Shown here piece after piece: positions 37,408 through 45,163 of a stretch of DNA of 64,000 nucleotides (positions within the stretch are counted from its first letter, which is position 1; every line of letters starts with the position of its first letter). The stretch is from contig NC_014150.1 of NCBI RefSeq assembly GCF_000092845.1, positions 1,302,001 to 1,366,000 on the forward strand, written 5' to 3'. The notes beneath the pieces are model-generated. The model worked only from the letters and a program-made list of their open reading frames with translations. It ran no database searches and had not been told where the DNA came from. A program made the translations under genes and the position numbers. The stretch comes from Brachyspira murdochii DSM 12563. GTDB taxonomy: Bacteria > Spirochaetota > Brachyspiria > Brachyspirales > Brachyspiraceae.

Positions 37408-38694
37408 TCATTTATTTTCTATAATATTATTTGCTGCCTCAAATCCGCTATTTATAGTTTGATCTGTCCAATAATATTCCCATTTTCCATATCTACCTGC
37501 TGTATATATGTTATTTTCTTTTAACCAGTCTAAAACTATTTTTTTATTGATTTCTGTATCGAGTGTAAATAATATATTAGCATACTTATGGTAATCTAAT
37601 TGAGCAAACTCTAGCTGCTTATAATCGAATATTTTCATTTCTAAAAGTTTATTAATAGTATGCTCCACTATTTCATTATTACTTAAATTTATTTGTTTGA
37701 ATTTAGAACAAGGTATTTCAGTCTGCAATGAAGTATAACCTTCAGGTGCATTATATGGAGATTTTAAGCTAGCAATGTAAACTCTAGGAAATAAAATTTC
37801 TTCATCATATACATAAAACCATAAATAAGGTAAATTCACTTTTCCTTTTAATCCTATCGATACAGTATAACCTGATGTATAACAAAGCTTTGAGGCTGCT
37901 TCTTTTACATTATTTGGAATATCTTCAATGATGTTAGTAATATAGGTTAATGGTAAAGTAGATATAATTTTATCATAATTAGTTTTATATCCATTATCAA
38001 ATAATAGTTCCTTTTTCTTAATATTCCATCTAATCAAATTATGATTTAATCTAATATTTTCTTTTGGGGTCCAAGAATCAAAGAAACTTTGAAATCCACC
38101 ATGTTGTGGATATCTCATTTCACTAGCATAATATTTAGATTTACTGTCTTTATTCCAAGCACCATACTCTATTTCCTTCAAATCACTTTTAATCACTCTA
38201 TAACCAATCCAATTAACACTCATATTTTCTGCTTCTGTAGTCCAATATTTTCTGGTATACTTATCTGAAAATTCTTTGGCAAAATAATATCCAAAAGAAG
38301 CATCAAGCCATTCTCTATAATTTTTAGGATTTTCTATATTCGGTCTATTTTTAAAACCTTCTATTATTTTTATTTTTTGTTCTTTATCTAAAGGATATAA
38401 ATTACTTTGAGTAGGATTTCCAAGCCATAAACCTTTATAATAATTAGCTACATTTGGAATATGGCTGTAATATTCATTAGAAGCAATATTAAATAATTCC
38501 ATAATTTGATTGTCTTTTGTAAAAGAGAAATGCGGAAATCTATCAAAAATAAATTTACCTATTTTTAATCTTCTGCATAATCCGCCATATTCATTTTCTT
38601 TTTCGAATATTTCAAAATTAATATTTTTTTGCTTTAATTTATAACCTGCAGATATACCAGATATTCCAGCACCTAATATTATAACTTTATTCAT
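37408..38694 (-). CDS. FAD-dependent amine oxidase/UDP-galactopyranose mutase-like protein
   Basis: About 428 aa. The N-terminus KVIILGAGISGISAGYKLKQ is a FAD-binding Rossmann fold, with FEKENEYGGLCRR as the second FAD contact as in protoporphyrinogen-oxidase and UGM-like flavoproteins; the C-terminus has GRYGKWEYYWTDQTINSG. I use the ATG at 38694 rather than the TTG one codon before it. It overlaps the GT2 gene at 38687 and is the last gene of the polysaccharide operon. A role in sugar ring contraction or sugar oxidation is inferred from context. Confidence 0.82.
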   Translation of the reverse strand: MNKVIILGAGISGISAGYKLKQKNINFEIFEKENEYGGLCRRLKIGKFIFDRFPHFSFTKDNQIMELFNIASNEYYSHIPNVANYYKGLWLGNPTQSNLYPLDKEQKIKIIEGFKNRPNIENPKNYREWLDASFGYYFAKEFSDKYTRKYWTTEAENMSVNWIGYRVIKSDLKEIEYGAWNKDSKSKYYASEMRYPQHGGFQSFFDSWTPKENIRLNHNLIRWNIKKKELLFDNGYKTNYDKIISTLPLTYITNIIEDIPNNVKEAASKLCYTSGYTVSIGLKGKVNLPYLWFYVYDEEILFPRVYIASLKSPYNAPEGYTSLQTEIPCSKFKQINLSNNEIVEHTINKLLEMKIFDYKQLEFAQLDYHKYANILFTLDTEINKKIVLDWLKENNIYTAGRYGKWEYYWTDQTINSGFEAANNIIENK

Positions 38695-39625
38695 CAAAAT
38701 TTATTCTTTCCTCTTCTATAACTAATGGTTTTTTAACCATTCTAAGATTAATATTTAGAATATACTCACCTAAAAGTCCTATAAAAAATAATTGTACTGA
38801 ACCTATAAAAAATACACCAACCATTAATGTCGCCATACCTATTGGATATGTATTCCAATGTACGATCTTTTGTATAAATGTTATTAATCCTATAAAAAAA
38901 GTTATTATAGAAAATGTAAATCCAATAAAAGTTGAAACTCTCAATATAACTTTAGAATAACTTATTATAGACAACATTGCTATGTCATATGATTTATAAA
39001 AACTAAGTTTAGATTTACCTGTTTTTCTTTTTTCATGTATATATGGTATTTCTTTTATTTTAAAACCAAATTCTCCAACTACATTTTTAAAATATGGTTC
39101 AGGATCTTCTATTTTTCTCAATATATCAATAAAATCTTTATCATAAAGGCCAAAACCATTGAAATTAGATATTATTTTGGCACTGTCTATTTTAGATAAA
39201 ATAGATATTATTTTATAATAAATACCTCTTAAAATGGAAACAATACCTTCATTACTTTTTGTTTTTTTAGCTATAACTACTTTATATCCATTTTCCCATT
39301 CTTTAATAAAATCAGATATTAATTTAGGAGGATCTTGAAAATCTGCAAATATAAGTATTGCACAATCTCCTGTTATTTGAGTTAATCCATAATAAAAATT
39401 CTTTAATGGACCAAAATTTCTGGAATTAAAAATAGCTTTAACATTTTTATTTTTTTTGCATAAATCTCTTATTATATATCTCGTATTATCTGTAGAACAA
39501 TTATCTATAAAAATAATTTCATAATCATAATTAAAATTAGATATAATTTTTATAATTTCTTTTGAAATAGGTTCTATATTTTTTTCTTCATTATATGTTG
39601 GAACTAGTATACTAATTTTTTTCAT
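38687..39625 (-). CDS. GT2 family glycosyltransferase (GtrB/DPM1-like), copy A
   Basis: 312 aa. The catalytic GT-A domain begins KISILVPTYNEEKNIEPIS, has the DxD-type FADFQDPP (about 95-102), and two C-terminal membrane helices (about 230-290), the layout of polyprenyl-phosphate sugar transferases such as GtrB. It ends INFDE. It is a paralogue of the gene at 39649, with the same layout and no repeat tail. AGGAGAG precedes the ATG. It starts only 23 bases after the present stop of the upstream paralogue, across an intrinsic terminator. Confidence 0.93.
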   Translation of the reverse strand: MKKISILVPTYNEEKNIEPISKEIIKIISNFNYDYEIIFIDNCSTDNTRYIIRDLCKKNKNVKAIFNSRNFGPLKNFYYGLTQITGDCAILIFADFQDPPKLISDFIKEWENGYKVVIAKKTKSNEGIVSILRGIYYKIISILSKIDSAKIISNFNGFGLYDKDFIDILRKIEDPEPYFKNVVGEFGFKIKEIPYIHEKRKTGKSKLSFYKSYDIAMLSIISYSKVILRVSTFIGFTFSIITFFIGLITFIQKIVHWNTYPIGMATLMVGVFFIGSVQLFFIGLLGEYILNINLRMVKKPLVIEEERINFDE

Positions 39626-45015: not shown

Positions 45016-45163
45016 AAATTACTCCATAAAATACAAAGATTGTATTTAGTTTAATAAATATATTTTTGGTAATAAAGATAAAATTTATTTGATAGTGTTT
45101 ATTTTTATTTGATAGTGTTTGTTTGTTTGTTTGTTTGTTTGTTTGTTTGTTTGTTTGTTTCAT
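45008..45163 (-). CDS. Leader peptide containing the (GTTT)11 repeat
   Basis: A 51-codon frame starting ATG at 45163 directly before the repeat (MKQTNKQTNKQT...), with GGAAA about 6 bases upstream. It ends GVIYE with TAA at 45010-45008, overlapping the GT87 start (ATGAATAA). With 10 or 12 repeat units the frame hits TAA soon after the repeat, well before the GT87 start. It is probably a regulatory leader rather than a functional protein. An alternative start lies upstream at 45199. Confidence 0.5.
   Translation of the reverse strand: MKQTNKQTNKQTNKQTLSNKNKHYQINFIFITKNIFIKLNTIFVFYGVIYE
45117..45160. repeat. Microsatellite (GTTT)11
   Basis: Eleven perfect tetranucleotide units (44 bases), AAAC on the minus strand, upstream of the GT87 gene. 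Next to it, ATTTGATAGTGTTT is present twice as a direct repeat (about 45087-45120). Confidence 0.97.

Follow-up and report, generated by a model that had tools for sequence, protein, structure and literature searches.

Tandem repeats at gene ends in a Brachyspira glycan locus: candidate frame sorters between genes

Introduction

Simple sequence repeat (SSR) contingency loci are familiar from Neisseria, Haemophilus, and Campylobacter. Their repeats lie near the 5' end of a gene or in its promoter, and they break or dim the gene that carries them. Searches for phase-variable genes usually target repeats early in a gene that disrupt it. What might such a repeat do if it lies behind the catalytic domain instead?

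This question is raised by a polysaccharide locus of Brachyspira murdochii DSM 12563. The window, meaning the whole stretch of 64,000 nucleotides that was analysed, covers positions 1302001-1366000 of contig NC_014150.1, and the locus occupies positions 37408-45163 of it on the minus strand. A sequence-only reading of this DNA had proposed that three microsatellites, two at gene ends and one in a leader, change the passage of expression to the next gene while the catalytic part of every enzyme stays whole. For comparison, 26 genomes of the same genus were used.

The locus

Read 5' to 3', the minus strand encodes a leader open reading frame (ORF), GT87, epi1, RmlC, epi2, GT2a, GT2b, and an FAD amino-oxidase-fold protein. 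The original description as an eight-gene locus holds if the leader ORF is counted; the annotation gives seven genes and the leader ORF. The GT87, epimerase, RmlC, and GT2 families named at the time were each assigned again.

The leader ORF (45008-45163; all features of the locus are on the minus strand) begins MKQTNKQTN when read from the ATG at 45163, and its open frame has an earlier ATG at 45199. On its 5' side lies a promoter-like TTGACT-16-TATGAT (45188-45215), a candidate by consensus match alone, and such sites are no commoner in the region than in shuffled sequence. The leader is followed by a GT87-family membrane glycosyltransferase (43288-45015; PF09594) and by epi1 (42239-43135), an NAD-dependent epimerase/dehydratase by ORF and Pfam match that carries a repeat at its end. 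Next come an RmlC-type dTDP-sugar 3,5-epimerase (41623-42156; PF00908) and epi2 (40734-41612), a second epimerase by Pfam that is free of repeats and aligns with epi1 at 72% identity. Two GT2-family glycosyltransferases assigned by Pfam, GT2a (39649-40737) and GT2b (38687-39625), precede the FAD amino-oxidase-fold protein (37408-38697; PF01593 and PF13450), which is putatively glf-like.

The two epimerase genes share a block of 158 bp that is identical (42354-42511 and 40825-40982), while their DNA is 81% identical over 847 aligned bases. By its sequence, this block looks like the product of a recent gene conversion. Just upstream of the leader, on the plus strand, lies a stop-interrupted putative remnant of an IS3-type transposase (45330-46170), named by reading its translation; two pieces of it were scanned, with no Pfam match. 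A phage terminase large subunit gene (PF04466; 46379-47749, minus strand) adjoins the locus.

Three repeats and their exit frames

Tandem Repeats Finder confirmed all three microsatellites, each with 100% matches: AAAC in 11.2 copies within the leader ORF (45116-45160), AGAGC in 8.0 copies at the 3' end of epi1 (42242-42281), and AGAAC in 15.2 copies at the native end of GT2a (39735-39810). Their placement at native gene ends or in the leader was likewise borne out. In a systematic sample of 400 kb from the same genome, only three G/C-containing pentanucleotide arrays of at least 25 nt were found, together with one AT-only and one trinucleotide array; the arrays in order-2 Markov sequence (5 x 400 kb) were all dinucleotide ones. 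Because such arrays are sparse in the genome sample, three of them within 5.5 kb form a cluster.

Units of four and five nucleotides are not multiples of three, so each unit gained or lost shifts the frame in which translation leaves the repeat. The pentamers encode one cyclic peptide in every frame (RTEQN, RAEQS), and thus no stop occurs inside the repeat. In these respects the window repeats resemble those of SSR contingency loci: they are perfect, short, tandem, in a coding frame, and of a unit length that is not a multiple of three. They depart from such loci in that every exit frame of epi1 and GT2a retains the whole enzyme, and the repeat-bearing gene is not truncated; the leader ORF is short. 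Without its repeat, GT2a (309 aa) aligns over its full length with GT2b (65% identity) and with a GT2 of genome G016 (83%), which upholds the claim that the catalytic part is whole. GT2b ends natively in INFDE and the G016 protein in INFDK, while GT2a reads INFN and then enters the repeat.

The three exit frames differ greatly in length. Those of GT2a stop at 39732, 39722, or 39649, which is 3, 13, or 86 nt past the repeat. The frame in the sequenced genome is the longest. It gives the tail RTEQN...KPVAKILATGFLF, crosses an intrinsic terminator between GT2a and GT2b (39659-39690), and stops 23 nt before the ATG of GT2b. A terminator inside the operon had been claimed from the start, and it is present as a stem of 14 pairs with a T tail; the 121 nt around it fold with a z score of -4.8.

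At epi1 the frames stop at 42239 (the sequenced one), 42232, or 42153, the first two being 3 and 10 nt past the repeat. The long frame overlaps the ATG of rmlC (42156) as ATGA. No intrinsic terminator is found at this junction. In its place is a hairpin that pairs the Shine-Dalgarno region of rmlC (ACATTCC...GGGAGTGT; 42160-42191; about -17 kcal/mol by folding), and the long frame is the sole epi1 frame to cross it. The leader frames stop at 45105, 45085, or 45008. The two short ones end 11 and 31 nt past the repeat, and the sequenced one overlaps the ATG of GT87 (45015) by 8 nt.

Related loci in the genus

The arrangement was found again in homologous and in unrelated loci of the genus. In genome G005 the homologous locus is without GT2a, and its epi1 ends in AGAGC x15.4. 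This genome is a weak comparator: its epi1 is interrupted by an internal stop, and of the GT87 region a 323-aa ORF is left, with no Pfam match. The GT2 of G016 carries no repeat. In G010, a GT2 with 31% identity (locus L136) carries AGAAC x14.4, followed by a similar terminator that one frame crosses; the next gene encodes a nucleotidyltransferase. In G014 (L072), an AAAC leader is present with its ATG and with a frame overlapping the next start, although its sequence has diverged. The gene after this leader was considered as a GT87 and rejected: it has no Pfam match, and its similarity to the window's GT87 is limited to the first 220 residues or so (32%, E 1e-11).

The hairpin over the rmlC Shine-Dalgarno region is the same in G005. 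In G001, an aminotransferase gene 5' of rmlC ends in AGAGA x52, and a foldable Shine-Dalgarno hairpin of different sequence follows. At the rmlC junction of G011 the repeat is present and the hairpin does not form. Repeat and hairpin are both retained between diverged cassettes, as in GT2a and L136 of G010, or in L011 and L091, whose upstream proteins are 83% identical. Copy numbers differ between orthologs of different genomes: 8.0 and 15.4 for epi1, 8.0 and 29.0 for L014 and L075, and 10.6 and 16.4 for L011 and L091. Among 33 GT2a-related loci, none of them labelled Brachyspira (263,326 bases, from a contig search that may omit records close to the window's genome), no 4-mer array of at least 20 nt and no 5-mer array of at least 22 nt was found.

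For a genus-wide set, arrays were gathered by AGAVC patterns (among the matches listed) and by a cassette motif, and the set is incomplete. The motif is present in 17 of the 26 genomes, and a reversed control in none. The counts leave out AT-only arrays, those lying 60 nt or less from the end of a contig, and those whose flanks are identical. A search for similar 3'-end repeats, as the sequence-only reading had suggested, finds them elsewhere: 67 of the 100 non-redundant arrays examined end an ORF of at least 100 codons, in 20 of the 26 genomes, and the other 33 lie elsewhere than at 3' ends; this share, like the range of unit types, is biased by the AGAVC-based choice of loci. The units of the 67 arrays are of the ACCAG type (37), AACAG (14), AGAGC (13), AAGAG (2), and ACAG (1). 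T is absent from the coding-strand unit in all 67.

The genes that end in these arrays are diverse. Outside the window, 65 genes lie upstream of an array; of the 28 scanned with Pfam, 26 match a family and two match none. The families include methyltransferases, GT2, epimerase, GFO/IDH oxidoreductase, short-chain dehydrogenase, radical SAM, ATP-grasp, aminotransferase, formyl transferase, and pyruvyl transferase. Repeat-plus-tail cassettes are thus common to unrelated genes, which the sequence-only reading did not mention. By blastn the cassette tails form 11 clusters; clustering by shared 8-mers had given a single, uninformative cluster in this AT-rich DNA.

Hairpins between genes

Two features of an attenuator are a terminator before the downstream gene and a choice of ribosome positions, some reaching it and some not. 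The former is found before GT2b, and the latter is found in all 39 of the terminator-bearing cassettes (39 of 67, by a rule that required two closing pairs): each has one or more frames that end short of the hairpin and one or more that run into it. Among the early-stopping frames of these cassettes, the smallest gap to the hairpin is 26 nt. Every one of the 67 cassettes has one or more exit frames that end within 22 nt, and 48 have two of them. By the same rule, 28 of the 67 cassettes are without a terminator.

Terminators are strongly enriched at the repeats. With three closing pairs required, as also in the comparison with ordinary terminators below, a terminator is present in 25 of the 38 junctions whose next ATG follows the repeat by 70-130 nt, compared with 4 of 43 ordinary same-strand gaps of equal size (Fisher p 1.1e-7).

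The idea that a frame is kept open up to the next gene, the strongest claim of the sequence-only reading, did not fare as well. At 20 of the 38 junctions and 19 of the 43 ordinary gaps, some frame stays open until 26 nt or less before the next start (p 0.51). Since ordinary gaps are open about equally often, this was dropped as a defining signal. In the window, such a frame is found at three of three repeats, with a p of about 0.09 against ordinary gaps that is approximate, as the leader is not a gap between two genes. Conservation of the tail peptides was also considered and rejected: on visual comparison, most differences between the leader tails of the window and G014 are substitutions that change the amino acid, and so are most of those among the AGAGC tails. 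Across these tails, openness and the last residues alone look to have been kept.

The four AGAGC cassettes of G001 differ from this pattern. Their hairpins are weak and follow the stops of all three frames, and three of these cassettes have their next ATG at a distance of 191-272 nt.

Alanine-ending tails

A second recurrent feature, also absent from the sequence-only reading, concerns the end of the upstream protein. In 51 of the 67 3'-end repeats, one exit frame ends in Ala (AA 32, VA 12, TA 5, IA 1, SA 1), compared with 5 of 335 ordinary ORFs of at least 150 aa and 2 of 137 shifted-frame tails. This frame is the longest in 37 loci and the middle one in 14. Examples of such tails are KLQPMLQYKIAA, FEYAYRKTA, and YKSQAVA; the residues before the last two vary. 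Tails of the KLQPM type end in Ala in 30 of 35 cases, with lengths of 8 to 13 residues, counted over anchors that include sites without a repeat.

Could the alanines be a by-product of GC-rich terminator stems? This explanation was ruled out. Frames that stop within cassette hairpins end in Ala in 31 of 35 cases, as against 9 of 135 at 79 ordinary terminators, and an Ala-ending frame is present in 20 of the 28 cassettes that have no terminator as well as in 31 of the 39 that have one. Ala counts within a tail cluster are not independent. At the level of clusters, six of the 11 are mainly Ala-ending, one is so by half, and four are without any Ala frame; the enrichment has a p of 3e-5 to 1.2e-3, depending on the assumed background.

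The endings resemble that of the tmRNA tag of the genus, which is ADEYALAA in 10 of the 11 loci scanned and ADEYAIAA in G001 (24 genomes have a tmRNA over the cut-off). Genes for ClpX and ClpP lie side by side in the window's genome. According to passages of PMC7246954, the LAA-COO- ending of ssrA tags is conserved across species, and hydrophobic last residues are depleted. Other proteases may act on degrons that are hydrophobic or rich in alanine, as a passage of PMC8512704 states. Together these patterns give strong sequence support to an ssrA-like tail in one frame as a second layer at the level of the genus. Neither tail of the window ends in Ala, let alone Ala-Ala (GFLF, GSVE); the tail of the G005 epi1 ortholog ends in GSVA.

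Proposed mechanism and alternatives

These features can be combined in a model in which repeats at a native C-terminus or in a leader sort ribosomes by frame, and so decide whether they enter a hairpin between genes, with an ssrA-like tail added in most cassettes. The chance that this model is right appears about even. Slipped-strand loss or gain of a unit would pick one of three exit frames, and translation confirms that the enzyme is untouched in each. One or two of the frames end no more than about 20 nt past the repeat, and at least one other runs on, in many cassettes into a hairpin before the next gene. A ribosome in the long frame would hold the hairpin open, and the downstream genes would be expressed. 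A ribosome in a short frame would stop before it, and the hairpin would form and lower downstream expression. In most related cassettes, though not in the window's two, one longer frame would also add an Ala-ending, tmRNA-tag-like tail to the upstream protein.

For the window itself, the best-supported reading is a heritable frame sorter, predicted to govern translation into the terminator before GT2b and glf or into the ribosome-binding-site hairpin before rmlC. The sequenced cell would then be in the long-frame state at the leader and GT2a, and in the short-frame state at epi1. Several points count against a frame sorter. The downstream genes may have promoters of their own, the GT2a ortholog of G016 has no repeat, G005 is without GT2a, and the rmlC junction of G011 lacks the Shine-Dalgarno hairpin.

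The same cassettes might serve chiefly as phase-variable degrons, with hairpins secondary. One exit frame would add an ssrA-like tail (-AA, -VA, -TA), and for roughly a third of repeat lengths the upstream enzyme would be lost to ClpXP or another protease. This falls somewhat short of an even chance. It accounts for the excess of Ala-ending frames over ordinary ORFs and shifted tails, for the independence of that excess from hairpins, for its recurrence in six of the 11 clusters, for the prevalence of the ending in KLQPM-type tails of differing length, and for the likeness to the tmRNA tag in a genome with ClpX and ClpP genes. It does not fit the window, where of epi1 and GT2a and their orthologs only the G005 epi1 tail ends in Ala, nor the variable residues before the last two. 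The sequenced state is the Ala frame in 22 of the 51 loci, not fewer than the one third expected (p 0.14), and besides the four clusters without an Ala frame, the clusters may share remote ancestry. Both layers could act together, since an Ala ending is found in 31 of 35 frames with a stop inside a terminator hairpin. A doubtful extension would then be a genus-wide see-saw, in which a cell has either a stable upstream enzyme and terminated downstream genes, or an upstream enzyme tagged by an ssrA mimic and a terminator opened by the ribosome. If it exists, chains of cassettes would allow a single operon to change its complement of glycan enzymes, and phase variation would act on protein stability and operon passage and not on the start of a gene.

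Less likely still, the shared repeat-plus-terminator 3' ends are recombination scars, seams for the shuffling of glycan genes whose frames have no regulatory role. Related cassettes do follow genes as unrelated as methyltransferases, radical SAM, ATP-grasp, pyruvyl transferase, GT2, and epimerase genes; such cassettes occur four times within a single stretch of 19.5 kb (L074), and the window has two duplicated gene pairs besides its 158 bp identical block. Shuffling would not predict Ala-ending tails in cassettes that have no detectable DNA similarity, however, nor does it explain why exact long repeats are kept. It seems quite improbable that these are ordinary contingency repeats which lie at 3' ends by accident and have no effect on expression. 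Such a view is in keeping with the 33 arrays found elsewhere and with frames open to the next start at chance level, but it leaves aside the terminator and Ala enrichments, the concentration at 3' ends (within the bias of the AGAVC choice), and the absence of T from the coding-strand unit.

Relation to known systems

The frame-sorter model borrows from several known systems. With SSR contingency loci it shares perfect repeats of 4-5 nt in surface-glycan genes, a frame set by copy number modulo 3, and a presumed slipped-strand mechanism. The difference is that here the repeats come after the catalytic domain and the enzyme is whole in every frame. In the polar phase variation of meningococcal siaD, as proposed here, a repeat-driven frame change alters transcription termination. 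The siaD repeat lies inside the coding part, however, and its termination is intragenic and Rho-dependent.

Opening of a terminator by a ribosome is described, in passages of PMC10135430, for pyrBI attenuation. In attenuators of that type, formation of an intrinsic terminator hairpin ahead of the next gene depends on where the ribosome stands, as is proposed here, but that position is set by nucleotide supply, whereas here it would be set by the heritable length of a DNA repeat. With tmRNA/ssrA degrons, as far as passages of PMC7246954 describe them, many related cassettes share Ala-ending tails on upstream proteins, in a genus whose tag is ADEYALAA. Here the genome itself encodes the putative degron, in one of the three frames that leave the repeat.

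No such system is described in the open-licence PMC literature among the matches listed, in searches on Brachyspira repeats or phase variation and on phase variation with degrons, C-terminal extensions, or termination. The passages listed for repeats, phase, and frameshifts in three Brachyspira genome papers contain no description of these arrays. Repeats after the catalytic domain are frequent in this one genus, with terminators inside operons and tmRNA-tag-like tails, and could control neighbouring genes or the lifetime of a protein. Their recurrence at gene ends suggests a way to switch glycan genes while the working parts of the enzymes are left intact. If this is true, catalogues of phase-variable genes may be missing entries in other bacteria, and the variability of glycans in the genus becomes directly testable.

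Other observations

Several loci show related sequences in other settings. In L009, L135, and L156, a basic-aromatic motif like AWWIPIKKLRDKFRNKF stands directly before the repeat of repeat-bearing genes, and a similar motif opens other proteins (L069, L070, L071). AGAAC or ACAGC arrays, related in unit but placed differently, lie in gaps that adjoin one lipoprotein-like family, recognised by SC[RK]RN[VI]FNPxIP (L010, L012, L013).

In L156 of genome G006 (position 3164), a KLQPM cassette is down to about two AGACC units; the gene ends in a short frame, and the Ala-ending tail persists out of frame. The classical 5' arrangement also occurs in the window's genome: at L015 (2966-3104), AAAC x34.8 comes right after an ATG, and one frame is open for 1539 nt into a 482-aa gene.
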